A stretch of DNA of 23,678 bases from a virus. A model generated the notes under the pieces. It saw only the letters and a list, made by a program, of their open reading frames with translations. It made no database searches and was not told where the DNA came from. The translations under genes and the position numbers were made by a program. The stretch lies in IMG/VR virus record IMGVR_UViG_3300033148_002497, positions 1 to 23,678 of that record; one strand, 5' to 3'. This document shows positions 6,184 through 18,090 of the stretch, piece after piece (within the stretch, counting starts at the first letter, position 1; every line of letters begins with the position of its first letter).

Positions 6184-7695
6184 ATGTTGAATGAAAATTG
6201 GAAGAAATACGCTTTGATGCTTGTTGCCGCCGTTGGTGGCATCTTGGCAATTGTCACACAATGTATCAATGACGGCGGGGACACCCCTGTCAATCCACCG
6301 GACCCACCGGCCAACACCAGCACCATTCAGTGGCACAGGGGTGACCTGAAGATGTTGAACGGGACGTGGGAAACGGTCAGTCCATCACTGTGGGCCGCCC
6401 GTGGTGAAATCCTGGACCTGGTCATCCAGACTGACAGCCAGGAATGTTTACCGCTGTCCATCAGCGGTGAAGGGGTTACAGCCAAATATTTTGAAATGGA
6501 AACCACCCAAACCTATGAACCGTCTTATCAGGGGGCCTTGGTCGGTTCCTGGTATGACCCACTACCGGTTGCCAATCAGCTTTGTGACCACAGCCCTGTG
6601 TGGGTGGAAATCCATGTGGCCAGTGATGCGGAAGCCGGAACAGCGGACATCCAGGTGTGTGACCTACCGGTTCAGTTGAACGTCATTGACTTCACACTTC
6701 CGGCTTTGCCGTCCTTTCCTATCTATATGGAAATTGGGTCATGGGGTGTGGTCCGTGGGCATGGCCTACCGGAAAGCACCAACGTGTCTGTCCAGGCACC
6801 ATTGACTAGGGCCTATGTTGATGAATTGCGGGCACACCGCGTGGAACCCTACAAGCATTACATCACCGTTCCGGATGTCAGTGCGGGGGTCCTGAACGTG
6901 GACCTGTGGGATGCCTATGGTGGGTCTTTCAGACAGCTTGTGGTTGATGGGGCCTTGGCACCAATTCAGTTCCCGGCCCTTGTATGGAACGGGTCACTTC
7001 AGCGGAATGTGTTGCGGCCGGAAGCATACTTCCGGGCCATTGAAGCGTTCCTTGTGGCGGAAGACATCCAGGCATGGACTTACTTGCGGGATGAACCGCC
7101 TATGTCAGCCATGTCCGAAGTGGCTGGATGGGCCGCGTCCATCAAACAGTGGGCACCACATTTGATGGTCATGGTCACCACGGAAGCCCATGCGGTCTTG
7201 CGGCCGGTGGTGGACATCCTGGCCCCGGTCATGGACCAATACAACATGCCGGGCCGAATCCAGGCGGACCAATACACCATGGACTTGTGGCTTTACACAT
7301 CTTGCATGGAACACGGATGCCACATTGTTGGAACCCACAACGGTGTTCCGGGCATGGTGCTGGACCACACGGGGATGCACCCCCGGATGTTCCCGGCGGT
7401 TGCGTGGCGGTTGGGGGCCAAGGCGGCCTTGTATTACAACACCACGGAAGCCTATGCATCCGCTGACAGATATGAACGGTTCCACGGGAATTATGATGGT
7501 GTGTTGTTCTACCCCGGTGACCTGGAACCCATTTCCAGCGTCCGGCTGAAGCTGGTCCGCCGTGGGTCAACAGACCTGGAATTCTTGACCAGGGCACCGG
7601 AAGGAACAGTCATCCCCATCACAGATGCCAGGACGTGGGAACACAACTGGCAAACGTGGGAAGACCTTATCCTGTCCATCAAGAAGGGGATGTGA
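6184..7695 (+). CDS. secreted or membrane-anchored GH123/DUF4091-like glycosidase
   Basis: 503 aa. An N-terminal hydrophobic segment (about residues 9-26, YALMLVAAVGGILAIVTQ) ending at Cys27 looks like a signal peptide or anchor. Gln at -1 makes a lipobox unlikely. Residues 50-200 form a beta-rich accessory part. The catalytic part has the adjacent acidic pair D303-E304 in YLRDEPP, the position of the Asp-Glu pair that performs substrate-assisted catalysis in GH123 N-acetyl-beta-galactosaminidases. It ends with the family signature DGVLFYPG...PISSVRLKLVRRGSTDLEFL. The MFPAVAWRLGAKAALYYNTTEAY stretch matches the barrel strand preceding it. Substrate is unknown. Its place among early-type genes, not tail genes, is odd. 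Start AAAGGGG-ACAATT-ATG. Confidence 0.82.
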   Translation: MLNENWKKYALMLVAAVGGILAIVTQCINDGGDTPVNPPDPPANTSTIQWHRGDLKMLNGTWETVSPSLWAARGEILDLVIQTDSQECLPLSISGEGVTAKYFEMETTQTYEPSYQGALVGSWYDPLPVANQLCDHSPVWVEIHVASDAEAGTADIQVCDLPVQLNVIDFTLPALPSFPIYMEIGSWGVVRGHGLPESTNVSVQAPLTRAYVDELRAHRVEPYKHYITVPDVSAGVLNVDLWDAYGGSFRQLVVDGALAPIQFPALVWNGSLQRNVLRPEAYFRAIEAFLVAEDIQAWTYLRDEPPMSAMSEVAGWAASIKQWAPHLMVMVTTEAHAVLRPVVDILAPVMDQYNMPGRIQADQYTMDLWLYTSCMEHGCHIVGTHNGVPGMVLDHTGMHPRMFPAVAWRLGAKAALYYNTTEAYASADRYERFHGNYDGVLFYPGDLEPISSVRLKLVRRGSTDLEFLTRAPEGTVIPITDARTWEHNWQTWEDLILSIKKGM

Positions 7696-7696
7696 C

Positions 7697-7981
7697 ATGG
7701 CCGCGTTCATTGACCCAAAGGTGATGGAAGGGCTGACAAGGGAATACCCCCTGGCCGGTGAAACGGTTGTGGGGGCTTTTGACCGGTTGGACGGTCTGAT
7801 GCGGGAATACAAGTTGGACATGCCTTTCCAACACCGGGTCAGGGTTGTTGAATCAGCCATTAAGATGTCCATAGTTTTGGGCACAGGTGATGGTGGTGTT
7901 GAAGGCTGGGTGGCAACATTGTTCACCAGGGCCTTCCACCAGATTGCCGAAAAATATCCTAGAAGGGTCAGGTCAGCATGA
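7697..7981 (+). CDS. hypothetical helical protein, 94 aa
   Basis: All-helical soluble protein with no cysteine cluster or membrane segment. ATG 7697 lies 1 nt after the glycosidase stop and follows AAGGGG with a 7-nt spacer. Its stop overlaps the next ATG by 4 bp. No family recognised; co-transcription with the glycosidase is likely. Confidence 0.62.
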   Translation: MAAFIDPKVMEGLTREYPLAGETVVGAFDRLDGLMREYKLDMPFQHRVRVVESAIKMSIVLGTGDGGVEGWVATLFTRAFHQIAEKYPRRVRSA

Positions 7982-8331
7982 ATGGATTGGTTGCCTATGG
8001 CATGTTCTTGTATATGTTTGTTGGTGGGCATGGTGACAACATCACCATCAGCAATGAACTGTGGGAATTTGACCGCTTCCTTGTCAGGGATTGCACCATG
8101 CAGATTGTTGACCTGGTGAACTTGAAACAGATGTTGCCGGACGGTCGGTGGGTGTCCATTGAAGGTGTGAACAATGACCCCGCGTTCCGGAAACACCTTC
8201 AGGAGGGTGTTGAATACTACAACACCCCTGAATATCTGGCCAAGCTGAAACGGTTGAACATGTCCTTGGGTTTTTGGCAACGCAAGATGAAGCCGTTGAA
8301 TTGCCGGAAGATTCGGCTGGGTGATGACTGA
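7978..8331 (+). CDS. hypothetical protein, 117 aa
   Basis: The N-terminus is hydrophobic (NGLVAYGMFLYMFVGGHGDN), possibly one short membrane segment; the rest is soluble and basic towards the end. No family recognised. It starts in an ATGA overlap with the previous gene, with AGG five bases upstream. It is the last gene of the left operon: a promoter and a strong terminator follow. It contains an AGGAGG (8201-8206), one of the few GAG-containing sites. Confidence 0.6.
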   Translation: MNGLVAYGMFLYMFVGGHGDNITISNELWEFDRFLVRDCTMQIVDLVNLKQMLPDGRWVSIEGVNNDPAFRKHLQEGVEYYNTPEYLAKLKRLNMSLGFWQRKMKPLNCRKIRLGDD

Positions 8332-8332
8332 C

Positions 8333-8361
8333 TTGCTTCAGTGAACAGCCAGTGATAACCT
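8333..8361 (+). promoter_or_regulatory. candidate promoter upstream of a possible small RNA
   Basis: TTGCTT (8333-8338), a 17-nt spacer and TAACCT (8356-8361) followed by GGTT. The same -10 and following bases (TAACCTGGTT) occur at 13698. The -10 matches the sigma70 consensus at only three positions, so support rests on the repeat and the spacing. Confidence 0.35.
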
Positions 8362-8367
8362 GGTTTC

Positions 8368-8513
8368 ACTTGTAGTGAAGTCTGATTGTTTAAGAGCATA
8401 AAGACACTATTTCAGGGGGGACCAAACTATGAACATGCGGGATTAAAGCCCCGCACCTACAATAGAATATGGTTAGCATACTAATGGGGGGCTTGACCGG
8501 CCCCCCATTTTTT
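8368..8513 (+). ncRNA. candidate small RNA with 5-codon leader ORF
   Basis: This non-genic interval runs from a candidate promoter to a strong terminator. It begins with a tight hairpin TTCACT-TGT-AGTGAA (8365-8379). It then has AGGGGGG followed by an ATG at 8429 opening a five-codon frame, M-N-M-R-D, stop at 8446. A second hairpin, TGCGGG/CCCGCA (8436-8455), overlaps that mini-ORF, and the Rho-independent terminator ends it. It could be an sRNA, an attenuator or a leader-peptide relic. No known family is recognised. Confidence 0.35.
8484..8513 (+). terminator. strong Rho-independent terminator
   Basis: A perfect 9-bp stem, ATGGGGGGC (8484-8492) with GCCCCCCAT (8500-8508), a 7-nt loop, then six T residues. 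It closes the left plus-strand operon and lies directly at the 3' end of the opposing endonuclease gene, so it may serve both directions. Confidence 0.88.
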
Positions 8514-9007
8514 CAATACTTATGTTTTTCTATTCTTCCGCGTCCGGTCTGATTTAATCGTTTCATTTTTTTCCAACACCCCAAACGGAACTTTTTTATT
8601 TGTGGTGTTGCATCCCACCGGCTTTTGATTCTTGGGAAGTCCAAAACAAGTTGTGCCTGTTTCTTTTTCAGTCGTAGGTGTTCAATGATTTGTTTCAGGA
8701 ATGGGCGGCAATATCTGCCAGCAATAGACCATTCCGCAAGATGTCTTTGGCCCGGCCTTTTCCTAATCCATATATACCCGATGCCGCCCATTTCTTTCTG
8801 TAAGCCTTTTAAGTGTTTCGGTTCACCCCCTATCTTTATACTTGTTTCAAAACTTTCACCACGCTTTCTATCGCCTATGGTTGTTAGTTTGTCCCGCCTG
8901 ATGATTAATATAGAACCGTCCCCGTCAATCAGTCCGGCCAGGTAGTGGCATAAAGATTTGGGGAATTTTGGGATGTTTATATCTTTTCCTGTATCTTTGA
9001 ATTTCAT
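8513..9007 (-). CDS. LAGLIDADG homing endonuclease, single motif
   Basis: The motif LAGLIDGDG occupies residues 23-31 and is followed by GSI, the standard catalytic helix and first strand. The rest (ETSIKIGGEPKHLKGLQKEMGGIGYIWIRKR, EWSIAGRYCRPFLKQIIEHLRLKKKQAQL) matches the alpha-beta fold of these nucleases. With only one motif in 164 aa it should act as a homodimer cutting a long pseudo-palindromic site. It is free-standing, not in an intron or intein. It is more AT-rich than its neighbours with a different codon use, suggesting mobility. ATG 9007 is chosen; TTG 9025 would add six residues. Neither has a strong SD. It is on the minus strand, opposing the surrounding operons. Confidence 0.9.
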   Translation of the reverse strand: MKFKDTGKDINIPKFPKSLCHYLAGLIDGDGSILIIRRDKLTTIGDRKRGESFETSIKIGGEPKHLKGLQKEMGGIGYIWIRKRPGQRHLAEWSIAGRYCRPFLKQIIEHLRLKKKQAQLVLDFPRIKSRWDATPQIKKFRLGCWKKMKRLNQTGRGRIEKHKY

Positions 9008-9076
9008 GGTTGTGGTTCTTATCAATTAATTTGTGTTGTGTAAATAGTTGGTTTTCACCATCACTTTTCAACACAG

Positions 9077-9091
9077 TACCGCAATGTGGTA
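9077..9091. promoter_or_regulatory. operator A, inverted repeat
   Basis: TACCGCAATGTGGTA, a 15-bp imperfect palindrome of the type TACCRC-N3-GYGGTA. Its exact reverse complement occurs inside the recombinase promoter (14167-14181). On the minus strand it is followed directly by TACTGT, a possible -10 for the LAGLIDADG gene, about 65 nt upstream of its start. Confidence 0.6.
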
Positions 9092-9108
9092 AAAAACCTA
9101 ATGATTCT

Positions 9109-9122
9109 AACACTGTAGTGTT
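9109..9122. promoter_or_regulatory. second palindrome in the divergent control region
   Basis: AACACTGTAGTGTT is a 14-bp inverted repeat (AACACT/AGTGTT around GT) lying between operators A and B, upstream of the -35 at 9135. It differs from the TACCRC repeat, so it may bind another regulator. Confidence 0.35.
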
Positions 9123-9134
9123 GCCACTTTTGAT

Positions 9135-9162
9135 TTGACTTGTTACCGCGTTGTGGTATTCT
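9135..9162 (+). promoter_or_regulatory. promoter for leaderless mRNA, with operator in spacer
   Basis: TTGACT (9135-9140), 16-nt spacer, TATTCT (9157-9162). The -10 ends 6 nt before ATG 9169, so transcription should start at or within a base of the start codon. There is no SD. The spacer is occupied by operator B, TACCGCGTTGTGGTA (9144-9158). Confidence 0.7.
9144..9158. promoter_or_regulatory. operator B, inverted repeat in promoter spacer
   Basis: TACCGCGTTGTGGTA, same family as operators A, C, D and E. It fills the -35/-10 spacer and overlaps the first bases of the -10, the position expected for direct repression of the promoter at 9135. Confidence 0.65.
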
Positions 9163-9168
9163 TTAATC

Positions 9169-9372
9169 ATGAAGGCAACCAAATTACAAGAAACGCTGGA
9201 AGAAAAAATCAAAGAACTGGTAGCCAAGTATCAAGCCCTGGATGCTGAATGGGACCGGTTGGATTCCCAAGGCATCATGGTTGACAAACAGGCACAGATT
9301 GCCAACAAGCTGGTGGACACCAGAAAAAGTTTGGAATTCTACCGTGAACTGTTGGCCAAACTGAAGGGGTGA
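9169..9372 (+). CDS. small coiled-coil protein, leaderless, 67 aa
   Basis: An almost entirely helical, highly charged protein with heptad-like spacing (LQETLEEKIKELVAKYQALDAEWDRL, then IANKLVDTRKSLEFYRELLAKL), probably a dimeric coiled coil or helical hairpin. No family is recognised. ATG 9169 is chosen because it lies at the predicted transcription start of an operator-controlled promoter. No SD precedes it, so it should be translated as a leaderless mRNA. It is the first gene of the operon running to 13574. Confidence 0.72.
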   Translation: MKATKLQETLEEKIKELVAKYQALDAEWDRLDSQGIMVDKQAQIANKLVDTRKSLEFYRELLAKLKG

Positions 9373-9376
9373 TGAT

Positions 9377-9454
9377 ATGTGGCCAACACCACTTCAAATC
9401 ATCTGGTGGTCCCTGGTGGACTACTTGAAGGAAAGGAAAAAGAAACATGCCTAA
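9377..9454 (+). CDS. micro-protein, 25 aa, amphipathic with basic tail
   Basis: ATG 9377 follows AAGGGG with a 7-nt spacer and encodes a tryptophan-rich hydrophobic stretch (WPTPLQIIWWSLVDYL) followed by a basic tail (KERKKKHA). It overlaps the next gene's start by 8 bp, as many real genes do here. Such a peptide would sit on or in the membrane. It is supported only by SD, spacing and composition. Confidence 0.5.
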   Translation: MWPTPLQIIWWSLVDYLKERKKKHA

Positions 9455-10337
9455 AATTTGTTACATTGAAAAGAAGTTCAGTGCCGGTTCAGAAAAGTTG
9501 ATTGGACAGGCCAATCAAATCATCACGGACTTTGCTGACCAGGGGTTCAAGCTGACCTTGCGGCAATTATATTATCAGTTTGTGGCCCGTGATTTGATTA
9601 AGAACATCCCAACTGAATACAAGCGGATGGGGTCCATCATCAATGATGCCCGGTTGGCCGGGCTGATTGATTGGAAGGCCATTGAAGACCGGACCCGCAA
9701 CATCAAAGGCAACACACATTGGGACAGCCCTGGTGAAATTGTCCGGTCCTGTGCCGATGACTATACAATTGATATGTGGAAAGGCCAGACCTACAGGCCG
9801 GAAGTCTGGATTGAAAAGGATGCTTTGATTGGTGTCATTGAACGGGTTTGCACAAACCTGGACGTGACCTTCTTTTCTTGCCACGGCTACAACAGCCAGT
9901 CTGAAATGTGGGCCGGTGCCCAACGGTTGAAGTGGTATGCCGCATACCAGGGACAGACCCCAATCATCATCCATCTTGGTGACCATGACCCTTCAGGGAT
10001 TGATATGTCCCGTGACATCCTGGACAGGTTGACGTTGTTTATGGGGGGGATGAAGGTCAACCGGATTGCCTTGAACGCTGACCAAGTTGAGAAATACAAT
10101 CCGCCGCCCAATCCAACCAAGGTGACTGACAGCCGGGCGGCCGGTTACATCAAGAAGTTTGGCCGGAAAAGTTGGGAACTGGATGCCCTGGAACCAGCCG
10201 TGATGGAAAAGCTGATTGAAAAGACGGTGCTGAAACTTCGGGATGATGATGCCTATGAACAGTGTGTGGCCAAGCAACGGCAAGGCCAGAACCGTCTTCA
10301 GGAAGTGGCGGATGACCTGGAAGAATCCGAAGAATAA
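9447..10337 (+). CDS. Toprim protein resembling TopoVI-A/Spo11
   Basis: 296 aa. The Toprim core is clear: E123 in VWIEKDAL and the D179-x-D181 pair in IIIHLGDHDPSGIDMS, which coordinate Mg in topoisomerases and Spo11. Upstream, residues 37-43 read TLRQLYY, the arrangement of the winged-helix domain carrying the catalytic tyrosine in TopoVI-A/Spo11 (SxRxxYY). The protein may thus cut DNA by a tyrosine link or act as a Toprim nuclease. It lacks a visible B-type GHKL ATPase partner in the window. Downstream of the core is a basic region and an acidic tail. Its role in replication, recombination or defence is open. The start overlaps the micro-protein by 8 bp. Confidence 0.78.
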   Translation: MPKICYIEKKFSAGSEKLIGQANQIITDFADQGFKLTLRQLYYQFVARDLIKNIPTEYKRMGSIINDARLAGLIDWKAIEDRTRNIKGNTHWDSPGEIVRSCADDYTIDMWKGQTYRPEVWIEKDALIGVIERVCTNLDVTFFSCHGYNSQSEMWAGAQRLKWYAAYQGQTPIIIHLGDHDPSGIDMSRDILDRLTLFMGGMKVNRIALNADQVEKYNPPPNPTKVTDSRAAGYIKKFGRKSWELDALEPAVMEKLIEKTVLKLRDDDAYEQCVAKQRQGQNRLQEVADDLEESEE

Positions 10338-10368
10338 CACCATCAACATAAAATGTTGAAATATTGGG

Positions 10369-10392
10369 GGGGATGGGGTATGACCCCACCCC
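10369..10392 (+). promoter_or_regulatory. GC-rich hairpin before 10408
   Basis: TGGGGT-ATG-ACCCCA (10374-10388) extended by outer G/C pairs around a bulged A. No T-run follows, so it is not a typical terminator. It ends 4 nt before the SD (AGGAAG) of the next gene and could block access or mark RNA processing. Confidence 0.45.
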
Positions 10393-10407
10393 ACTAGGAA
10401 GTGCATT

Positions 10408-10623
10408 ATGGCCAAGCAAACATTCATACAATTTCTGAAGACCAACGGACTGGAAACCACCCTGACCCATCAGCAACAGGAACTTGCCCAAGCCGTGTCC
10501 TGTCAGAACCGGCTGGTGTTCCTTCCTGGTTCATCAGCCTACGGGCGGGCAATAGTGTTCCGGCTGTGGGCCAGATATATGAAGGAAGGCAAGCAATGTC
10601 AGACAATCAAAGCGACCGGTTAG
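10408..10623 (+). CDS. hypothetical helical protein, 71 aa
   Basis: Small protein with a helix-rich N-terminus (FIQFLKTNGLETTLTHQQQELAQAV), a Cys and a short basic C-terminus. No family recognised. ATG 10408 has AGGAAG upstream, one of the stronger sites available to a genome that avoids GAG. A GC-rich hairpin lies just upstream. It overlaps the next gene by 28 bp. Confidence 0.6.
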   Translation: MAKQTFIQFLKTNGLETTLTHQQQELAQAVSCQNRLVFLPGSSAYGRAIVFRLWARYMKEGKQCQTIKATG

Positions 10624-11012
10624 AATCAGCCTTGGCTGAAGTGATGGGTTTGTTGAAGCAACATGACCTTGGTGGGTTCATTATTCTTCATGACCATGAC
10701 GATGCCGTGTTTAAGATGGAATTCCCGTCCTGGTCCACAGCCCGCTTCAGACCCAAGGGCAAGGACGGTCAGGTGCTTCACCTGAAGATGGAACAGGAAA
10801 AGCACCAGGATGTTGAAGGAACCGTGACCATGCTGTTGAACATCCGGGACATCTGTTTGCGGGTGGCCAGCCAACTGGACACGGTCCGGAAGCGGATGGA
10901 ATCAGCGGGTATGGAAATTGACCACAACCCCATCATCCTGGAACGGAACAAGGTGTCACCCATATTCCCACAGAACGGCCCTGACAGCCCCCCCGGCCCC
11001 GGGGCCGCCTAA
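10596..11012 (+). CDS. hypothetical protein, 138 aa
   Basis: N-terminal helix (DRLESALAEVMGLLKQ), a beta segment (GGFIILHDHDDAVFKMEFPSWS), a helical coiled region (VTMLLNIRDICLRVASQLDTVRKRM) and a Pro/Gly tail. No family recognised. ATG 10596 is taken instead of the longer frame at 10401, which lies in the previous gene; AAGGAAGG precedes it. The tail is encoded by a GC palindrome GGCCCCGGGGCC near 10997. Confidence 0.62.
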   Translation: MSDNQSDRLESALAEVMGLLKQHDLGGFIILHDHDDAVFKMEFPSWSTARFRPKGKDGQVLHLKMEQEKHQDVEGTVTMLLNIRDICLRVASQLDTVRKRMESAGMEIDHNPIILERNKVSPIFPQNGPDSPPGPGAA

Positions 11013-11044
11013 CCCCTACCCCGGGCATGAAAAGCCCACAGCGG

Positions 11045-11079
11045 CCCCCTGTGTGGCCCTGGTATGGGATTCCAGGGGG
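11045..11079 (+). promoter_or_regulatory. stem-loop in the 11013-11166 gap
   Basis: CCCCCTG (11045-11051) pairs with CAGGGGG (11073-11079); the loop can form an inner CCTGG/CCAGG stem. There is no T-run, so termination would be weak. Apart from this and the promoter below I see nothing else in the 154-bp gap. Confidence 0.4.
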
Positions 11080-11111
11080 GCATTGACGGCCAGGTGCTTT
11101 GGAAAGTAAAC

Positions 11112-11141
11112 TTGAATAATTAAGGGGATTTTTGGTATAAA
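11112..11141 (+). promoter_or_regulatory. candidate promoter
   Basis: TTGAAT (11112-11117), 18-nt spacer, TATAAA (11136-11141) in a locally AT-rich stretch. It would give a leader of about 20 nt containing the SD (AGGGGATTGGC-ATG) of the gene at 11167. Confidence 0.55.
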
Positions 11142-11166
11142 TTATTTTAATTGACAGGGGATTGGC

Positions 11167-11610
11167 ATGAATAAGAAAACTTTGAATCTGGTGGAACTTC
11201 ACAAAGGCAAGACTACTTCTGAACATGACCTGGTCTGGAAGGGCAAGGCCCTTCACTTGGCAATCAATCCGGCACCCAAGGGGGCCTGGAATCTTATCTA
11301 TTGGTTCTGGTGTCATCATGAAGCGGTTGAAATGATGCCCGGGGTATTCATGCCGGGCCAAGACCACAAGCAACCGTTCACCGGCATAGTGGTGAAGCAA
11401 CGCTGGTGGCACGGGCTGTCGGGCACCACGGAAGACAAGTTGTTGGAACGCGGTCTAGTGAAGCTGAAAGCACTGACCGAAAAGTTGAAAGGGGAAATTG
11501 AAAGGCATGAACAAATCCAAGACAAGTTTGGAATCAGAAAAGACAATAACCAGGATTCAAAAGGCTGTTGCACAGTGCAAGAAGTGCCGCCTTCACAAGA
11601 CCCGGCATAG
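11167..11610 (+). CDS. hypothetical protein, 147 aa, overlapping UDG gene
   Basis: Globular N-terminal part with aromatic residues (WNLIYWFWCHHE, IVVKQRWWHGL), then a coiled helix (LLERGLVKLKALTEKLKGEIERHEQ). No family recognised. The last ~35 codons overlap the uracil-DNA glycosylase frame by 104 bp and encode a low-complexity tail, so an earlier stop may have been lost by frameshift. Start: AGGGGATTGGC-ATG, about 20 nt downstream of a predicted promoter. Confidence 0.65.
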   Translation: MNKKTLNLVELHKGKTTSEHDLVWKGKALHLAINPAPKGAWNLIYWFWCHHEAVEMMPGVFMPGQDHKQPFTGIVVKQRWWHGLSGTTEDKLLERGLVKLKALTEKLKGEIERHEQIQDKFGIRKDNNQDSKGCCTVQEVPPSQDPA

Positions 11611-12091
11611 AACTGTGCCGGGTGAAGGTTCACCAGGCGGAATCCTAATCATCGGGGAAGCCCCTGGTGCCGATGAAGATGACCAGGGCCGTCCGTTTGT
11701 GGGCCGGTCAGGGAAGTTGTTGCGGACATTGATAACCAAGGCCGGGATGAATGAAAAAAACACGTTCATCACCAACACTGTCAAGTGCCGTCCACCAGGT
11801 AACCGCAACCCCCTGTCAGATGAACGGGCGGAATGCAAAGGTTTCCTGAACCGGCAAATCAAAGCGGCCAAGCCCAAGGTTGTTGTGTTGGTTGGTGCGG
11901 TGGCCATGAAGAACATCCTGAACACCACCAAGACCATTGGCCAGCGGCGGGGCTGTAGGATTGTCAAGAAACACGTCACCTATGTTCCGGTGTATCATCC
12001 GGCCTATTGCTTGCGGCAACCTTCAGCCAGGAAGGTTCTGTTGAAGGACTTGCGGAAGGCCAAGGCACTTTATGATTTGCTGGTGATATGA
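11507..12091 (+). CDS. uracil-DNA glycosylase, family 4 (Fe-S type)
   Basis: Removes uracil from DNA to start base-excision repair. Family-4 marks are all present: four Fe-S cysteines C24, C27, C94 and C110 (CKKC, then KC and EC sixteen apart), motif GEAPG (50-54) followed by DQGRPFVGRSGKLL, the TNTVKCRPPGNRNP segment, and the HPAY motif (164-167) near the C-terminus. The protein is full-length at 194 aa. ATG 11507 is chosen; the SD is indirect (AAAGGGG 13 nt away, or AAAGG close by). Together with ThyX and the MazG-like protein it suggests control of uracil in phage DNA. The start lies inside the previous gene. Confidence 0.92.
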   Translation: MNKSKTSLESEKTITRIQKAVAQCKKCRLHKTRHRTVPGEGSPGGILIIGEAPGADEDDQGRPFVGRSGKLLRTLITKAGMNEKNTFITNTVKCRPPGNRNPLSDERAECKGFLNRQIKAAKPKVVVLVGAVAMKNILNTTKTIGQRRGCRIVKKHVTYVPVYHPAYCLRQPSARKVLLKDLRKAKALYDLLVI

Positions 12092-12519
12092 TGACAACAG
12101 CCATGTGGATTGTGTTTGGTGTCCTGGCCCTGGTTGGTCTGTTGACCAATTCCTTGCTTCATGAATGTGCCCATGCATTGGTGTTTGCCATATGCGGGGG
12201 CCAGATTGTGGAATTCAAACCATGGCCACACATAAAGGACAACAAGAAGTGGTGCTTTGGCCGTGTCCGTTATTACATTCCGCCGGATTCAAAGGTGACA
12301 AAAGGGCAATGGATGTTGATTCATTCAGCCCCGGCAATCAAAGGACTGTTGCTTTCAGCCGTGTGGTTCTGTCTAATGTTTTGGGTCTACCCCCCGTTCA
12401 TGGCCCTGTTGCTGTGGCAATTGATGGACGTGTTCTGGTTCTTAATAGGGTATTCATTTTTCCAATCAAGTGATGGTGGGAAGTTCAGAAAGTTGGTGGG
12501 TGGTCATGCGTCTAGATGA
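12088..12519 (+). CDS. membrane metallopeptidase-like protein, M50/S2P type
   Basis: 143 aa with an HExxH zinc motif (H25-E26-C-A-H29) in a membrane-proximal helix (LLTNSLLHECAHALVFAICGG), followed by further hydrophobic segments (LLLSAVWFCLMFWVYPPFMALLLW, DVFWFLIGYSFF). It ends with S-S-D129-G-G, resembling the third zinc ligand motif (LDGG) of site-2 proteases. This is a minimal version of an intramembrane metalloprotease. Family assignment is by motif and topology. A phage could use it to cleave a membrane-bound regulator or envelope protein (inference). Starts in an ATGA overlap with the UDG gene. Confidence 0.7.
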   Translation: MMTTAMWIVFGVLALVGLLTNSLLHECAHALVFAICGGQIVEFKPWPHIKDNKKWCFGRVRYYIPPDSKVTKGQWMLIHSAPAIKGLLLSAVWFCLMFWVYPPFMALLLWQLMDVFWFLIGYSFFQSSDGGKFRKLVGGHASR

Positions 12520-12805
12520 AAATAAGTTGATGCGCCGGGACTTATTACTGACAAGGCAGAAAGGCAATGTCAGTAGCACCCTTCTTTATTTAATCCGTGA
12601 AACTGAAAACGGAACCGAACGTCCAATAATAGATGGATTTCTGGCACACCTTAAATGTGACATTTCTGATTTATTGATTCAAACTGAACAGCTTGCCAAA
12701 GATTTAGGGTTCAATGTGGATGAGATTAGGACGTTGGGTGGGTGCCGTGTGCGGGAACGCAAGAAGGAATGTAACAAAGAAAAGAAAGCCGCTTATTGGC
12801 TATAG
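12506..12805 (+). CDS. hypothetical protein, 99 aa
   Basis: Helical protein with a basic, cysteine-containing tail (CRVRERKKECNKEKK). It is AT-richer than its neighbours. ATG 12506 overlaps the protease gene by 14 bp; the upstream purine/GT tract gives only a weak SD. No family recognised. Contains one GAG (12722-12724). Confidence 0.58.
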   Translation: MRLDENKLMRRDLLLTRQKGNVSSTLLYLIRETENGTERPIIDGFLAHLKCDISDLLIQTEQLAKDLGFNVDEIRTLGGCRVRERKKECNKEKKAAYWL

Positions 12806-12820
12806 ATGGGGGGGACAAGG

Positions 12821-13060
12821 ATGACAGTCTGGACACACCACAGGGGCCACCCCATCCGCTATGACTGGAACCAAAGAGTGTGGGTGTATGCGGACAATGG
12901 GGAACCGGCTGACCTGGAACGCCGATGTGTCCGGTGTGGAAAGTCACCAACACCTGAAGGGCATGATGCCTGTCTTGGTGTCATTGAAGGTGCCATTTCA
13001 GCATGTTGTGGCCACGGGGTAACAGAACTGTATGTCAAAAAAACGAAAAGACCGAATTAG
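12821..13060 (+). CDS. conserved phage protein with Cys/His cluster, 79 aa
   Basis: N-terminal W-T-H-H-R-G-H-P-I-R-Y-D strand, then a zinc-ribbon-like region: CVRCGKSPTPEGHDACLG, then ISACCGHG. The wording CxRCG..PTPEGHDACLG....ACCGHG recurs in a family of small uncharacterised phage and bacterial proteins that I recognise only as hypothetical. ATG 12821 is chosen because GGGGGG-ACAAGG precedes it; the upstream ATG at 12806 overlaps the G-run. Confidence 0.7.
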   Translation: MTVWTHHRGHPIRYDWNQRVWVYADNGEPADLERRCVRCGKSPTPEGHDACLGVIEGAISACCGHGVTELYVKKTKRPN

Positions 13061-13325
13061 CCTGACTGACTTGCTTGCCCTTCTTGGGAAGAAAAGCAAG
13101 GACGTGACAATCCCACGGAAGACTTTGCTTGCACTGGTTGAAGATTGGGGTGACATGGGTGATGCCCTTTCCGAATTCAAAGAAATCTGGCAACCTTTAC
13201 ACAATGAAAAGAAGTCTTGGGAATTCAGAACAGCGTCCCGGCCACTGAACAAACTGCGCTGCACAATGTTTAGTCACATTAAGAATGAACCGGGGCCAGC
13301 AAGGAAACCGTTGCCGGTAAGATAA
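13032..13325 (+). CDS. hypothetical basic protein, 97 aa
   Basis: Basic N-terminus (SKKRKDR) followed by helices (LTDLLALLGKKSKD, KTLLALVEDWGDMGDALSEFKEIW). No family recognised. It overlaps the previous gene by 29 bp and has no clear SD, so translation likely depends on coupling. Confidence 0.58.
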   Translation: MSKKRKDRISLTDLLALLGKKSKDVTIPRKTLLALVEDWGDMGDALSEFKEIWQPLHNEKKSWEFRTASRPLNKLRCTMFSHIKNEPGPARKPLPVR

Positions 13326-13340
13326 AAAAGGAGGATTAGA

Positions 13341-13574
13341 ATGGTAACATTTATTGTGTCTGTTGTAGTAGGTGCCGTTGTGGTGGCCGTTGTTATGGGA
13401 ATACTTTTTGCGGGTGCATTGCTGTTGGATGAAGCAAATGAATATGGTTGGTGGAAAGCGATATGCAACCTTTTTATTCTTGTGTGTTTTCTCTCAATTG
13501 TTGTGGCCGTGTTTGTTTTGGTGGCATACGCAATTGGTTCTAGTGCCCTTTATATTTGGGGTTTGCTGCTATAG
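13341..13574 (+). CDS. small two-helix membrane protein, 77 aa
   Basis: Two strong hydrophobic segments (VTFIVSVVVGAVVVAVVMGILFAGALLL and FILVCFLSIVVAVFVLVAYAIGS) separated by a short acidic, tryptophan-containing linker. The size and topology fit a holin, but no lysis gene is adjacent and nothing else supports that. It is preceded by AAGGAGG, the only start in the window with a canonical GAG-containing SD, and itself holds two CTC triplets, so it may be a recent arrival. Last gene of the operon. Confidence 0.65.
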   Translation: MVTFIVSVVVGAVVVAVVMGILFAGALLLDEANEYGWWKAICNLFILVCFLSIVVAVFVLVAYAIGSSALYIWGLLL

Positions 13575-13587
13575 TTACGATAAAAAA

Positions 13588-13620
13588 AGGGGTGACCGTT
13601 GCGCCACCCCTGCCTTTTAT
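13588..13620 (+). terminator. Rho-independent terminator
   Basis: Stem AGGGGTG (13588-13594) with CACCCCT (13605-13611) and a 10-nt loop, then GCCTTTTATT. It ends the 9169-13574 operon. Confidence 0.7.
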
Positions 13621-13674
13621 TCGGGTTATCCGAAGTGAAAAGGTATTTATAGAACCATCATATACACATCCCGT

Positions 13675-13703
13675 TTGCAAATACAAGGCGGCCCGTGTAA
13701 CCT
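13675..13703 (+). promoter_or_regulatory. candidate promoter for leaderless HNH mRNA
   Basis: TTGCAA (13675-13680), 17-nt spacer, TAACCT (13698-13703), then six bases to ATG 13710. The spacing equals that of the other leaderless promoters here, and the -10 region repeats that at 8356. There is no operator in the spacer. The -10 is a weak consensus match. Confidence 0.42.
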
Positions 13704-13709
13704 GGTTCC

Positions 13710-14069
13710 ATGAATGTCTGGCAAACCCTGAAGGACCGCATCCAAGGCAAGGCACCAAAGGGTGCCCGCCGGTCCAGCCGTTGGACCAAGGCCCGGAAGC
13801 GTCATCTGGAAAAGAACCCACGGTGTGAAGTGTGCGGGTCAAAGAAGGCCCTGGAAGTCCACCACGTCATTCCCTTCAGCATTGCACCAGACCTGGAACT
13901 AGACCCATCCAACTTCATCAGCCTGTGTGAAAACAAGAAATATGGAATCAACTGTCACCTGTTGCTTGGCCACCTTGGGAACTACCGGCGGTTCAATGCC
14001 AGCGTGAAAGCTGATGTGATGTATCTTCGGATGCGGTTGGGCAAGGTGCCTTCCACAACCCCACTTTAG
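13710..14069 (+). CDS. HNH endonuclease, 119 aa
   Basis: Classic HNH fold: zinc pair C39-x2-C42, catalytic H51-H52 in LEVHHVIPF, the Asn at N68 (DPSNFISLC), then C73 and CH...GH at 82-88. The length is typical for phage HNH proteins, which act as homing nucleases or assist terminase in packaging. Here it lies about 2 kb from the terminase genes, just before a recombinase. ATG 13710 has no SD and sits 6 nt after a candidate -10. A very basic N-terminal region (KGARRSSRWTKARKRH) would help DNA binding. Confidence 0.9.
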   Translation: MNVWQTLKDRIQGKAPKGARRSSRWTKARKRHLEKNPRCEVCGSKKALEVHHVIPFSIAPDLELDPSNFISLCENKKYGINCHLLLGHLGNYRRFNASVKADVMYLRMRLGKVPSTTPL

Positions 14070-14070
14070 T

Positions 14071-14093
14071 TATCACAATGCGGTCCCACTGTT
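14071..14093. repeat. direct repeat copy 1, upstream of recombinase
   Basis: GGTCCCACTGTT (14082-14093) recurs at 14146-14157, 64 bp downstream. The flanking TATCACAATGCGGTC (14071-14085) is a degenerate version of the TACCRC operator, matching site D at 12 of 15 positions. Possible arm-type recombinase site or degenerate operator. Confidence 0.4.
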
Positions 14094-14118
14094 CACCGCT
14101 TCAGCCCACCTATAACTT

Positions 14119-14129
14119 GTTAGAATCAT
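14119..14129. repeat. 11-bp shared upstream element
   Basis: GTTAGAATCAT occurs here on the plus strand and at 9101-9111 on the minus strand. In both places it precedes a TTACCAC-type operator within 5-9 nt. It points to duplicated control regions of the recombinase and endonuclease genes. Confidence 0.45.
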
Positions 14130-14134
14130 AGTGT

Positions 14135-14149
14135 TACCACACCGTGGTC
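14135..14149. promoter_or_regulatory. operator C, inverted repeat
   Basis: TACCACACCGTGGTC, containing the 12-bp near-perfect palindrome ACCACACCGTGGT. It lies 7 nt upstream of the recombinase -35, about 32 bp (three helical turns) from operator D, so cooperative binding is possible. Confidence 0.55.
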
Positions 14150-14157
14150 CCACTGTT
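14146..14157. repeat. direct repeat copy 2, upstream of recombinase
   Basis: GGTCCCACTGTT, second copy of the repeat at 14082. It ends at the first base of the recombinase -35 box. Confidence 0.4.
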
Positions 14158-14185
14158 TGACATCTATACCACATTGCGGTACTAT
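14157..14185 (+). promoter_or_regulatory. recombinase promoter, leaderless, operator-controlled
   Basis: A perfect TTGACA (14157-14162), 17-nt spacer and TACTAT (14180-14185), then six bases to ATG 14192. No SD. This is the best sigma70 promoter in the window. The spacer holds operator D. Confidence 0.8.
14167..14181. promoter_or_regulatory. operator D, inverted repeat in promoter spacer
   Basis: TACCACATTGCGGTA, exact reverse complement of operator A. It fills the spacer and overlaps the first two bases of the -10 box, so a bound protein would exclude RNA polymerase. Confidence 0.68.
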
Positions 14186-14191
14186 TTAGTC

Positions 14192-14725
14192 ATGAAAGCA
14201 TTAGACCAAAACAAGTTCCTGACAGACAAAGAATTGAACAGCCTGTTGACCCTGTGCAATCAACACAGCGGACAGCGGGATTCCATCATCATCCGCTTCA
14301 CCCTGTTCACGGGTGCCCGGGGATGTGAAGCCCTGGCCGTGAAGAAACGTGACCTGGCCGGTGGGGCCGTCACCATCAGGGGGGCCAAGGGGTCCAATGA
14401 CCGGGTGGTGCCTTTGGATGCGGGGTTCTTCCAGGAAGTGTCCGAGTATGCCAGGAACATGGCCGATGATGACCGCCTGTTCCCAATAGCGGTCCGGACC
14501 TTCAGACACATCTGGAACCTTTATAGGCCCAACCACAAGAAGGGTGTCCACTGTTTGCGGCACACCTACGGGGTCCGGTTGTATCAGAACTGTGAAAACG
14601 TGTTCACGGTGAAGTCAGCCTTGGGACATGTTTCAATTTCCAGCACAATGGTCTATTTGGATTTTGTGGAAAGCCAGCGGAAGCTGAAGCAAGCGGCAAA
14701 GGGGATGTGGAAAAAGGTTGCTTGA
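14192..14725 (+). CDS. minimal tyrosine recombinase/integrase, 177 aa
   Basis: The catalytic domain is complete: R43 (TGARGCEAL), K66 in the beta-hairpin (GAKGSNDRVVPL), H120-x2-R123 (HCLRHTYG), H146 (LGH) and the nucleophile Y155 (MVYLDF). These residues cut and rejoin DNA through a 3'-phosphotyrosine. The N-terminal core-binding (SAM-like) and arm-binding domains of ordinary phage integrases are missing, so this is roughly half the usual size. It may integrate the phage, resolve dimers or invert DNA. ATG 14192 is set by the promoter geometry (leaderless, no SD). An upstream GTG at 14144 would fall before the promoter's -35. Operators C and D suggest tight control. Confidence 0.92.
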   Translation: MKALDQNKFLTDKELNSLLTLCNQHSGQRDSIIIRFTLFTGARGCEALAVKKRDLAGGAVTIRGAKGSNDRVVPLDAGFFQEVSEYARNMADDDRLFPIAVRTFRHIWNLYRPNHKKGVHCLRHTYGVRLYQNCENVFTVKSALGHVSISSTMVYLDFVESQRKLKQAAKGMWKKVA

Positions 14726-14742
14726 AAGTTTGTTCCTGAAGC

Positions 14743-14770
14743 CGGTGTCCTAAGTGGGCACCGTCTTTCC
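14743..14770 (+). terminator. terminator after recombinase
   Basis: CGGTGTCC-TAAGT-GGGCACCG (14743-14763, one T-G pair) followed by TCTTTCCC. Short T tract, so moderate strength. Confidence 0.55.
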
Positions 14771-14775
14771 CTGGT

Positions 14776-14817
14776 GGGGTGGTCCTTGTTGCCTTCATAA
14801 ACAAGAAGGGCCACCCC
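14776..14817. terminator. large bidirectional stem-loop between convergent genes
   Basis: GGGGTGGTCC...TTGTT pairs with AACAA...GGGCCACCCC with a small internal bulge and a 9-nt loop. It lies between the converging recombinase and regulator genes and probably separates their transcripts. T tracts are short on both sides. Confidence 0.55.
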
Positions 14818-14861
14818 CGTTTCCGAAGGTGACCCTTCATTGTACTAATGGCCGGACGATA

Positions 14862-15062
14862 CTATCTTACGGATTTCATCAGCCTGTCACGGACATAGGC
14901 GGAACGGGACATGTGTTTCTTCCCGGCGGCCGTGTCCACTTTCTTCAGGAACGCACTTGGAACGCTGACATTGAAGGCAATGCTTCGGTTGCTTCGGTCA
15001 GATTTCTTGACGTTCTTGGTCCGCTTGGCATCACGTTTGGTTTTATTGGTTTTCTTAGGCAT
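14862..15062 (-). CDS. ribbon-helix-helix (Arc/CopG-type) regulator, 66 aa
   Basis: Residues 27-66 fit the RHH fold: a beta strand (RSIAFNVSVP), helix 1 (AFLKKVDTAAGKK), the turn HMSRSAYVRD and helix 2 ending RLMKSVR. The S-R-S-x-Y-V-R-D turn is the usual signature. RHH proteins dimerise through the strand and insert it into the major groove of short inverted repeats. A basic N-terminal arm (KKTNKTKRDAKRTK) adds DNA contacts. ATG 15062 is chosen from its SD, AAAGGGG-CACAAC. The frame upstream of it is rejected. It lies between operators D and E, making it the leading candidate for their ligand. Confidence 0.82.
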   Translation of the reverse strand: MPKKTNKTKRDAKRTKNVKKSDRSNRSIAFNVSVPSAFLKKVDTAAGKKHMSRSAYVRDRLMKSVR

Positions 15063-15142
15063 GTTGTGCCCCTTTCTGTTAACTTGTTTCAACACCCAAT
15101 TCCCTACCAGGTAGACCAACATTTTTCAACAACTATTTTTGG

Positions 15143-15172
15143 GTGACATGGGGTGCCGCGTTGTGGTAACAT
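15143..15172 (+). promoter_or_regulatory. promoter for leaderless 15179 mRNA, with operator in spacer
   Basis: GTGACA (15143-15148), 18-nt spacer, TAACAT (15167-15172), then six bases to GTG 15179. No SD at correct distance. Operator E lies in the spacer. Between it and the RHH gene (15063-15142) I see only the RHH leader with its SD. Confidence 0.62.
15154..15168. promoter_or_regulatory. operator E, inverted repeat in promoter spacer
   Basis: TGCCGCGTTGTGGTA, differing from operator B at a single base (A to G at position 2). It overlaps the first two bases of the -10 of the 15143 promoter and lies about 92 bp upstream of the divergent RHH gene, so it could also serve autoregulation. Confidence 0.62.
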
Positions 15173-15178
15173 AGTGGG

Positions 15179-15481
15179 GTGAAACCAGATAAATGTATTT
15201 GCGGAAACATAGCGGTGTATGGCATAACGTCTTGGAACAGCCATGAAGACTGGTGCCAACGCTGTTGCAGCTTCATGAAAGGAAGAAAAATGGCAAAGCC
15301 TACACACAAAAGATTGAAGAACGGGGCCAAGGTGGTTGTTGAACGGTATGAAGGAAACATCTTGGTGGTGAAGAACCGGCGGGGGAAGGTGCTTGGAAGT
15401 TATGGCCCTGAACCAGAACGGCTGGCCCTTTTCAGAAAGCGGTATGAATCATTGCGGGCTGGAAAGCCAGCCAGGGGGTGA
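15179..15481 (+). CDS. small zinc-binding-type protein with leaderless GTG start, 100 aa
   Basis: N-terminal cysteine cluster (CICGNIAVYG...WCQRCCSF), consistent with one zinc site, then a beta-rich, basic region (GAKVVVERYEGNILVVKNRRGKVLGSYG). It could be a transcription factor, but no family is recognised. GTG 15179 is favoured because it sits at the start site of an operator-bearing promoter. An internal ATG at 15290 with a good AAAGGAAG site could yield a second, shorter product lacking the cysteines. First gene of the morphogenesis operon. Confidence 0.66.
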   Translation: MKPDKCICGNIAVYGITSWNSHEDWCQRCCSFMKGRKMAKPTHKRLKNGAKVVVERYEGNILVVKNRRGKVLGSYGPEPERLALFRKRYESLRAGKPARG

Positions 15482-15484
15482 CCC

Positions 15485-15895
15485 ATGGGAAAAAAGGGAT
15501 GGTTGACAATTAGGAATGTGCCCCGGATGGATTCATCCAAAGCCGGGAACGCACACTTCCAGGAAATGGTGAAGTTCTTTAAGACCCACAGACTGTGCCC
15601 CAAATGCCGGGGTCTTGGTCACAGGATGCGGGACGTGAAGGACAAGGAAATCCAGGACACTGTGGTCCGCTTCAGTGGGCTTGCCCCATTGGAAAAATTG
15701 CGGGATATGGACATTCCGCTGACAGATGTTATTAGGGACATCTTGGAAAGACGTGTCTTTGGGAAGCGGGCTTGTAGTTTGTGTCACGGTTCCCACTTTG
15801 TTGACAAAGAAACAGCACTGAAGTTCAAACGGAAAAGGGGAAAGAACCGTGGCGGAAAAAAGGGTCAGGGGAAGAAAAAGAAGGAAGCTGGTTGA
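15485..15895 (+). CDS. zinc-finger protein with Lys-rich tail, 136 aa
   Basis: Two C-x2-C pairs (CPKCRGLGH near residue 38 and CSLCHGSHF near residue 98) flank a helical insert. The CxxCxGxGH pattern resembles DnaJ-type or Q-antiterminator zinc fingers. The tail is almost pure Lys/Gly/Arg. The location before the terminase genes would suit a late-gene antiterminator, but that is inference from position. Start: AGGGGGTGACCC-ATG. It overlaps the next gene by 47 bp. Confidence 0.66.
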   Translation: MGKKGWLTIRNVPRMDSSKAGNAHFQEMVKFFKTHRLCPKCRGLGHRMRDVKDKEIQDTVVRFSGLAPLEKLRDMDIPLTDVIRDILERRVFGKRACSLCHGSHFVDKETALKFKRKRGKNRGGKKGQGKKKKEAG

Positions 15896-16505
15896 AAAGG
15901 TCCGCCGTCTAATCGGCAAGAACTACACTGATGGTGAAGTCTGTGACCAGCTTGACATCCGGCCAGATTCACTGACCGCAATCAAGTCTGAAATTCTGAA
16001 CTTTGACCAGGTGTCATTTGAACACATGGAATCAGGTGCAGTCCTTTCAGACTATGTCATGAAGGCCAGACAAAACATCACGGACCTGAATCATCTAATT
16101 AAGGCCACCAACATCCGCCGGGCACCGGGGTCTGAAAAGGCGGCCTATGTTGCGGCAATCAAATTGCGGTCTGAAATCCAGGACAAGGTTGTCCGATTGG
16201 GTCAGGACCTTGGCTTCATTGACCGCAAGGCACAGGAAACCAAGAACACCACCACACTTGAAGGTGGCATCAATCTGTCCATCGGCAAGATGTCTGATGA
16301 AGAAATCAAAGCCGAAATCAAAGCCGAAGTGGCACAGATGAACAAGATTGTGTCCGGCAAGGTCATCACCATGCGGCCTGAATTGTTGGGGGTTACAGAT
16401 TCGGATGTGAAGAAATTTCTTCCAGCCAATGTCATTGATGTGGAAGCCAAGGTCATCAAGAAAAAGAAGAAAGCCCGCGTCAACAAAGTCAAGTTGAATA
16501 AATAA
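15849..16505 (+). CDS. terS: candidate terminase small subunit, 218 aa
   Basis: Located directly before terL, with an N-terminal basic helix-turn-helix-like segment (RLIGKNYTDGEVCDQLDIRPDSLTAIKSEI) and helical oligomerisation regions typical of small terminases, which recognise the packaging site. It ends in a very basic tail (KKKKKARVNKVKLNK). The assignment rests on position, length and HTH and not on a family signature. GTG 15849 is preceded by AAAAGGGGAAAGAACC. Confidence 0.66.
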   Translation: MAEKRVRGRKRRKLVEKVRRLIGKNYTDGEVCDQLDIRPDSLTAIKSEILNFDQVSFEHMESGAVLSDYVMKARQNITDLNHLIKATNIRRAPGSEKAAYVAAIKLRSEIQDKVVRLGQDLGFIDRKAQETKNTTTLEGGINLSIGKMSDEEIKAEIKAEVAQMNKIVSGKVITMRPELLGVTDSDVKKFLPANVIDVEAKVIKKKKKARVNKVKLNK

Positions 16506-16522: not shown

Positions 16523-16563
16523 ATATCTATGTAGGGGAACAATTTAACTTTCAAGGGGTGGGT

Positions 16564-18090
16564 TTGGCCGCAACAGCACAAGTCATCAGTGACACAAACA
16601 TTAAGCAATTCCGCAATAGACAGCGGGATGAAATGATGTTGAAGAAAAAGAAGGTCATCCGGTATGCCTTCTTGCGGGACCAAATCCTGAAGCGTGACCG
16701 CATTGACCTACTGATGACAGAAGTGTTGGGCTACAAGGTGGAAGACTTCCACTTGTTGATGTGGCACCACCGCCGGAAATGCTACAAGCGGATTGGGAAA
16801 CAGAAGTGGCATTTGTCATTGGCCCCCCGTGGTGGCGGCAAGACCACCATTCAGACCATCAGTTCAATCATCCTGGACATCCTGAAAGACCCGGACATCC
16901 GCATCCTGATTGCATCCAAGACCGATTCAAACGCGGTTGAAATGCTTTCAGAGATCAAGAAGAAACTGAAAAGCAAGAAACTTGTCCGCATCTTTGGTGA
17001 ACAGATTGGCGACATCTGGAATGATGGTGTCATCAATGTGAAGGGCCGTGCGGAAGATGCACCCAAGGGCAAGACTGTCAGCACCATCGGTATCGGTTCA
17101 GCCCTGGCTTCCAGACACTTTGACAAAATCTATGCTGATGACTTGATTGATGAAGACAACAGCACCACTGAAGCACAGCGGACAAAAATCTATAAATGGT
17201 TCTTCAAAATCCTTGACCCCACCCTGTTGCCGCACGGTGAAATGTCCATGATTGGAACCAGGTATCACCATTCAGACTTGTATGGGACGTTGATTGACAA
17301 ACTGTTCACCAAGAAAAACAAGTTGAACAAAGTCACTAAACAGTATTACATCCGCATTCCGGCCCTAATCAAAAAGAAGAACGCAAAGAAGTTCACCCGC
17401 AAATCCAAAAAATATATTTCCTTTTGGCCTGAACAGTTCAGCGTCAAGTTCCTTCTGAAGAAAAAGAAGACCCAAGGAACCATCATCTTCAATGCCCAAT
17501 ATCAAAATGATGTTGAAGCAATGAAGGGTAAGATTTTCAAATATGATTGGTTTGAATGGTTCAAGAAGGATGAAATCAACATCCAAGACCTGATTATTTT
17601 CCAGGGTGTGGACTTGGCAATCAAACAAAAGGAAGATGCGGACAAGTTTGCCCATGTCACCATTGGTGTGGATAAGAAGACCAAGGACATATATGTCCTG
17701 AATTACTATAACCGGATAACGCATTACACCAAACAAAAACGCATCATCTGGAAACGGTTTCAGAAGTATGACCCGTTGCGGGTTTATGTTGAGGCAAACG
17801 GGTATCAAGGGGCCTTGCTTCAGGACATGCGGTCAGACCCAAAGCTGGCAACAATAAGGGCTTTTCCGCTTTTCACGGAAAAGGACAAGACCACCAGGGC
17901 ATGGAAATTGTCAGCGTATTTTGAACGCGGTCAGATTCATTTGCTTGAAGGAATGACTGAAATGCAAGAACATTTGTTGAAGATGCCGGACGGTAGGTAT
18001 AAAGATTTATTTGATGCCCTTGATATTGCCGTGTCCGCCGCCTTTGGGAAGAAACGGAAAATCAGGAAATCAGAACCGGGGGTTATATGA
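16564..18090 (+). CDS. terL: terminase large subunit
   Basis: The ATPase-nuclease motor that packages DNA into the prohead. Walker A is at about residue 86-95 (LAPRGGGKTT), followed by the adenine/coupling strand ILIASKTDSNAVEML and Walker B at about 190 (YADDLIDED). The RNase H-like nuclease half has its acidic residues at about 350 (FQGVDLA), about 415 (VYVEANGYQG) and near the C-terminus (DLFDALDIAVSAA). At 508 aa it is full-length. TTG 16564 is preferred (AAGGGG-TGGGT-TTG); GTG 16558 would put the SD in contact with the codon. It overlaps the portal gene by 4 bp. Confidence 0.95.
   Translation: MAATAQVISDTNIKQFRNRQRDEMMLKKKKVIRYAFLRDQILKRDRIDLLMTEVLGYKVEDFHLLMWHHRRKCYKRIGKQKWHLSLAPRGGGKTTIQTISSIILDILKDPDIRILIASKTDSNAVEMLSEIKKKLKSKKLVRIFGEQIGDIWNDGVINVKGRAEDAPKGKTVSTIGIGSALASRHFDKIYADDLIDEDNSTTEAQRTKIYKWFFKILDPTLLPHGEMSMIGTRYHHSDLYGTLIDKLFTKKNKLNKVTKQYYIRIPALIKKKNAKKFTRKSKKYISFWPEQFSVKFLLKKKKTQGTIIFNAQYQNDVEAMKGKIFKYDWFEWFKKDEINIQDLIIFQGVDLAIKQKEDADKFAHVTIGVDKKTKDIYVLNYYNRITHYTKQKRIIWKRFQKYDPLRVYVEANGYQGALLQDMRSDPKLATIRAFPLFTEKDKTTRAWKLSAYFERGQIHLLEGMTEMQEHLLKMPDGRYKDLFDALDIAVSAAFGKKRKIRKSEPGVI

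Follow-up and report, generated by a model that had tools for sequence, protein, structure and literature searches.

The virus record IMGVR_UViG_3300033148_002497 of IMG/VR, which is 23,678 bases long and was analysed over its whole length (the window), is the sole contig of its genome and represents a fragment, as its last reading frame is cut off by the contig end. The window belongs to a tailed phage with genes for a terminase, a portal protein, ThyX, a polynucleotide kinase phosphatase, a topoisomerase and an HNH protein, and its best terminase matches among isolate phages are below 60% identity. Between a topoisomerase operon that begins at position 9169 and the late operon that includes the terminase gene lie a gene for a small tyrosine recombinase and, divergently oriented, a gene for a ribbon-helix-helix (RHH) protein (Table 1). 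Here we describe six copies of a 15-bp pseudo-palindrome, TACCRC-N3-GYGGTA, in or near the promoters of the recombinase gene and the two operons. By their sequence, placement and conservation these sites are operators, presumably of one phage-encoded repressor, and late packaging genes, the topoisomerase operon and the recombinase share one control element.

In a scan of the window, the copies at 9077, 9144 and 14167 were exact, those at 14135 and 15154 had a single mismatch, and that at 14071 had two; the copy at 9077 was the exact reverse complement of that at 14167. A sequence-only reading of this DNA had noticed the shared inverted repeat at the first five of these positions, the reverse-complementary pair and a degenerate copy at 14071, and the scan bore out each of these observations. 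The motif also occurred beyond random expectation: five matches were found at up to one mismatch against 0.07 expected from dinucleotide shuffles, and six at up to two mismatches against 1.35, a count that was reached in no shuffle. All six sites are intergenic, with only about 15% of positions 8400-16505 being non-coding. These statistics have to be read with reserve, however, because the pattern was read post hoc off the same sites, which makes the enrichment figures partly circular, and because the excess was gone at up to three mismatches (23 matches in the window against 16.4 expected), so that no sites beyond the six are to be counted. Unsupervised palindrome clustering in the window did not make the motif significant by copy number alone, and a literature search for the motif returned no matching operator. 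Chance palindromes combined with conserved promoter elements would fit both the lost enrichment and the clustering result, but this explanation is contradicted by orthologous promoters in relatives, which keep the palindrome with compensatory changes, and we regard its probability as almost negligible.

Since the pattern had been derived from window sites, independent evidence was sought in relatives, which were identified by terminase (L005, with 73% identity, then L006-L011) or by recombinase alignment (L014); L007 is called G2 below, and its contig spans 108.9 kb. IMG/VR scans with a single recombinase or RHH sequence gave no matches, and two-sequence alignments were needed. In L005, TTGACT-TCGG-TACCGCATTGCGGTA-CTGT precedes the operon orthologous to that of the window: a perfect TACCGC-ATT-GCGGTA occupies the 17-bp spacer of TTGACT/TACTGT, upstream of a homologue of the 9169 open reading frame (ORF) and of the recombinase, and at the L005 late promoter a half site, the right half TTGTGGTAACAT, is retained. 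The L014 contig holds 11 copies of ACCACANTGTGGT at up to one mismatch (0.07 expected), six of which are primary sites in 17-bp spacers, and a late-promoter copy in addition. In G2, several promoters close to the recombinase and to the late operon carry TCCTACAWTGTAGGA, with seven sites in the G2 sequence L077 at up to three mismatches (0.24 expected). The operators of L014 and G2 lie in promoter spacers, usually with a second copy upstream. Late-promoter variants were also found in L006 and L010, and none was seen ahead of the late operon in L011. Of the six phages in which a late site was found, five have a degenerate left half there, the exception being L010. A change in one arm is usually matched in the partner arm (ACC.C/G.GGT, ACTAC/GTAGT, CCTAC/GTAGG), which is the pattern expected for sites under a symmetric dimer. 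Several copies of one motif are present at several phage promoters, and sites are kept at orthologous promoters in L005, L014, G2, L006 and L010. In L078, a cassette made up of a promoter, an operator and a leader (TTTAGATATGGAAGC...) recurs within positions 6371-10577, each time before a different small gene.

The proposal of the sequence-only reading that one operator family spans the recombinase gene, the 9169 operon and the morphogenesis operon gained support from these relatives, because recombinase and late operons carry the operator in other phages too. As relatives keep spacer sites at orthologous promoters with symmetric arm changes, sequence comparison indicates that the dispersed sites are a phage repressor regulon. 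An IMG/VR pattern scan returned a mix of true relatives, unrelated phages and chance matches and was used for context only. Promoters of the form TTGACA-N4-TACCAC-N3-GTGGTA-CAAT are present in unrelated phages (L018, L020, L028, L031, L033, L037, L042, L049 and others), some on contigs with two sites and some with XRE genes; these spacer-motif operators are apparently convergent. Such sharing among unrelated phages would suit a host transcription factor that reads the sites, linking the phage to the physiology of its host. The operator differs symmetrically between close relatives, as expected for phage-specific immunity, and recurs many times per phage, and a host factor is hence improbable. 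Still less probable is that the neighbouring recombinase recombines the sites, which might for example bound an invertible segment from 9077 to 14167. Sites 9077 and 14167 are exact inverted copies and a recombinase gene adjoins, but they have only 15-17 bp in common around a 3-bp centre, the sites lie in promoter spacers in each of four phages, with several copies per genome, and no second arrangement of the segment was seen; an invertible segment was therefore rejected.

Within the window, 9144, 14167 and 15154 fill the spacers between the -35 and -10 hexamers of good sigma-70-like promoters, as the sequence-only reading had stated for three sites. Primary operators are centred 6-8 bp upstream of the -10 element, in spacers of 16-18 bp, in the window, L005, L014 and G2. 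Because these spacers are normal and the hexamers good, repression is suggested rather than activation of the MerR type, which requires spacers of 19-20 bp and was rejected. The operator ends exactly 11 nt before the start codon at all three window promoters (9169 ATG, 14192 ATG, 15179 GTG), which places the start codon at the predicted +1; the distance is 11 nt in L005 and 13 nt in L014, in which the -10 element is shifted by two. A start codon at the predicted +1 was found at nearly all operator promoters (window 9169, 14192 and 15179; L005 7230 and 8687; L078). Transcripts from the operator promoters probably begin at the start codon and are then leaderless; no Shine-Dalgarno sequence precedes the 9169 and 14192 starts. 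In L005, the ORFs that begin at +1 are short, each overlapping or abutting the start that follows (TAGAATG, TGATG). At the window late promoter, the GTG at the predicted +1 opens an in-frame, 37-codon, Cys-rich extension before m1 (15179-15289), which is not conserved in L005.

The sites at 9077, 14135 and 14071 look like auxiliary operators. Second copies stand upstream of many primary sites at 32, 42, 53, 67, 86 or 96 bp, and these distinct spacings cluster near whole 10.5-bp helix turns (R 0.73, p 0.03), although 67 does not fit. The element TGTTAGAATCAT has only two exact copies in the window, in opposite orientations, both adjoining auxiliary operators. One of them lies near 9077, which slightly favours the earlier suggestion that 9077 may control the LAGLIDADG gene; no proper -35/-10 pair exists on the minus strand around 9077, only an extended -10-like TGTTAGAAT, shared with 14118.

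Taken together, we propose that a phage-encoded dimeric repressor would bind the 15-bp pseudo-palindrome in the spacer and exclude RNA polymerase, blocking the recombinase and 9169 promoters and also, from a weaker site, that of the late terminase operon. Upstream copies, mostly near whole helix turns, may strengthen repression at the first two promoters in a cooperative or looped manner. The left half-site being degenerate at every late promoter but that of L010, control is likely to be weaker there, and late genes may be the first to be released or may be repressed less.

Table 1. Features of the window related to the proposed regulon.
Feature	Position	Strand	Basis
Primary operator TACCGCGTTGTGGTA, 9169-promoter spacer	9144-9158	+	Motif scan, promoter placement
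Primary operator TACCACATTGCGGTA, recombinase-promoter spacer	14167-14181	+	Motif scan, promoter placement
Degenerate primary operator TGCCGCGTTGTGGTA, late (terminase) promoter	15154-15168	+	Equivalents in L005, L014, L006, L010, G2
Putative auxiliary operator TACCGCAATGTGGTA, 67 bp upstream of 9144; possible LAGLIDADG (minus-strand) control	9077-9091	+	Motif scan
Putative auxiliary operator TACCACACCGTGGTC (1 mismatch), 32 bp upstream of 14167	14135-14149	+	Motif scan
Putative degenerate auxiliary operator TATCACAATGCGGTC (2 mismatches), 96 bp upstream of 14167	14071-14085	+	Motif scan
Promoter of coil/topoisomerase-like operon, TTGACT (9135-9140)-16-TATTCT (9157-9162)	9135-9162	+	L005 orthologous operon with same promoter-operator
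Recombinase promoter, TTGACA-17-TACTAT	14157-14185	+	Best promoter-like site in 8400-15600
Late operon promoter, GTGACA-18-TAACAT, TG ahead of -10	15143-15172	+	Promoter scan
TGTTAGAATCAT, extended -10-like element adjoining 14135	14118-14129	+	Exact 12-bp repeat
TGTTAGAATCAT, second exact copy, adjoining 9077	9101-9112	-	Exact 12-bp repeat
Small coiled-coil-like ORF, first gene of 9169 operon	9169-9372	+	37% identical ORF after L005 operator
Topoisomerase (PHROG 6247), 9169 operon	9447-10337	+	Family match
177-aa tyrosine recombinase, catalytic domain only; regulon member, rival regulator	14192-14725	+	Active-site residues intact
66-aa RHH protein, basic N-terminal tail; leading candidate repressor	14862-15062	-	Fold, conservation
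m1, first gene of late operon, conserved in phage family	15290-15481	+	Comparison with relatives
Large terminase	16558-18090	+	Query for relatives

Elsewhere in the window, a 503-aa ORF (6184-7695) matched the glycoside hydrolase family 123 catalytic domain with an E-value of 3e-5, just over the Pfam cut-off. G2 encodes a CheY-like response regulator receiver domain (L077, 5002-5367, minus strand; Pfam E 4e-17), and a homologous frame is present in L078 (1196-1585), making two phages in all.

As to the protein that reads the operators, the RHH protein is the leading candidate, and it may be an Arc-like repressor encoded beside the late-promoter operator. Its divergent gene adjoins that operator and has conserved counterparts in L005 and L014. 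All five phages for which the recombinase region is available (window, L005, L014, L011 and G2) encode an RHH protein; the gene of L011 lies at the same place as in the window, and that of G2 lies elsewhere. The AFN[VI]SVP type was found only in the three phages with TACC-type operators, whereas G2 combines a different RHH protein with a different operator. The AlphaFold model has confident helices at residues 35-47 and 52-64 and, as a single chain was modelled, the strand is visible only in the sequence alignment; the protein thus has the beta-strand and two helices of an Arc-type repressor. Foldseek placed Arc first (probability 0.99, E 0.16), with CopG and AmrZ among the leading matches, the E-values being modest because the protein is short, and profile searches matched HicB in the PDB and the RHH part of Pfam HicB_lk (E 4e-5, below the curated cut-off). 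A second small gene after an L014 operator appeared RHH-like by eye, without Pfam support. Because the fold is Arc-like and an RHH gene occurs in all five phages, the RHH protein is a plausible operator binder, for which we see about an even chance, and the combined proposal, that a dimeric phage repressor, probably this protein, acts at the spacer operators of the recombinase, 9169 and late promoters, seems slightly more probable than its alternatives together.

Several observations weigh against this proposal. The RHH protein of G2 is neither syntenic nor clearly homologous, the promoter of the RHH gene itself has a spacer free of operators, and the recombinase is as well conserved as the RHH protein and covaries with phylogeny likewise. 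In addition, the window is a fragment, so the regulator may lie outside it, and the same motif adjoins XRE-type genes in unrelated phages, for which reason the motif alone does not name the class of its binder. The sites might accordingly be bound by a repressor, XRE/Cro-type or other, whose gene lies beyond the sequenced fragment. L005 encodes an XRE-like protein, HTH_3 proteins are encoded by several phages that share the spacer motif without being related (in L050 divergently from the operator), and the half-site TACCAC resembles lambda-type half-sites. This alternative is nevertheless rather unlikely, as no HTH_3 match was found in the G2 contig, the L014 contig or the window, all of which carry operators. 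For the same lack of an HTH_3/XRE match, a CI/Cro lysis-lysogeny switch was rejected. The sequence-only reading had envisaged a regulon linking lysogeny decisions with late genes: shared control of late genes was upheld, but the lysogeny decision was not, because a search of the window, itself a fragment, gave no CI/Cro-type gene and because the recombinase consists of the catalytic domain only.

The recombinase itself may be the repressor that acts on its own promoter and on the 9169 and late operons, possibly with recombinase activity kept. It is the only operator-linked gene of DNA-binding type that is clearly homologous in all five phages with the region, and it lies downstream of or beside an operator in each of the four phages in which operators were found. 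Its model matches the catalytic domains of XerH, XerA and the HP1/P2 integrases, and its active site comprises R43, K66, H120, R123, H146 and Y155. A precedent is MrpR of SPbeta, a master repressor with the tyrosine recombinase fold that acts on a 15-bp element (SPBRE) at about ten promoters (PMC10516654). Because a protein of the same fold represses through a dispersed element of this length, and a small tyrosine recombinase gene adjoins the window operators, the recombinase is a serious rival, although not a likely one. MrpR has about 320 aa and a core-binding domain, and its active site is broken, whereas the window protein has 177 aa, no core-binding domain and an intact site, with R, K, HxxR, H and Y kept in all five homologues; usual tyrosine recombinase sites, moreover, have longer arms around a 6-8-bp spacer. 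A related recombinase in a Bdellovibrionaceae metagenome-assembled genome has one nearby palindrome, not repeated; in L114 (9886-9904), from such a genome, a perfect 19-bp palindrome, GTTAAAGTATTACTTTAAC, stands between two divergent small recombinase genes and occurs once in the locus. As the palindromes next to distant small recombinases are not repeated in their loci, they lend no support to the idea that the recombinase is the binder. That a catalytically intact, catalytic-domain-only recombinase doubles as master repressor of dispersed spacer operators is unlikely in our view; if true, such a protein would tie site-specific recombination in an uncultured phage family to the control of late genes. 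The 177-aa recombinase need not be an integrase and may serve genome resolution.

Returning to the RHH protein, Arc of phage P22 acts from an operator between the -35 and -10 elements (Pant), that is, from a spacer operator bound by an RHH protein. The window operators fit an Arc-type repressor in placement, and the window protein is predicted to share the RHH phage repressor fold. Arc serves the single immI region, whereas the window copies are dispersed over three promoters including that of the late operon, and the window protein, a candidate binder, is only 24-31% identical to Arc in the structural match. The system is of the dispersed-operator kind already known and is a new instance in an undescribed phage family. 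It offers a testable regulatory map for a family without an isolate that encodes a close terminase, as well as operator variants that form a natural series and lie beside candidate repressors, which would be useful for learning how small phage repressors change specificity. P1 C1 sites are asymmetric 17-mers, and no C1 relative was recognised in the window. The likeness to P1 lies in the many operators of one repressor that are spread over the phage genome (PMC8546580). Dispersed operators are also known in L5-like or cluster A mycobacteriophages, the Rep stoperators (PMC9283540, PMC6550527), which share with the window sites their dispersal and a motif that drifts between related phages; stoperators, which are asymmetric and have a monomer as their binder, stop elongation as well, whereas the window sites are symmetric and lie in promoters.

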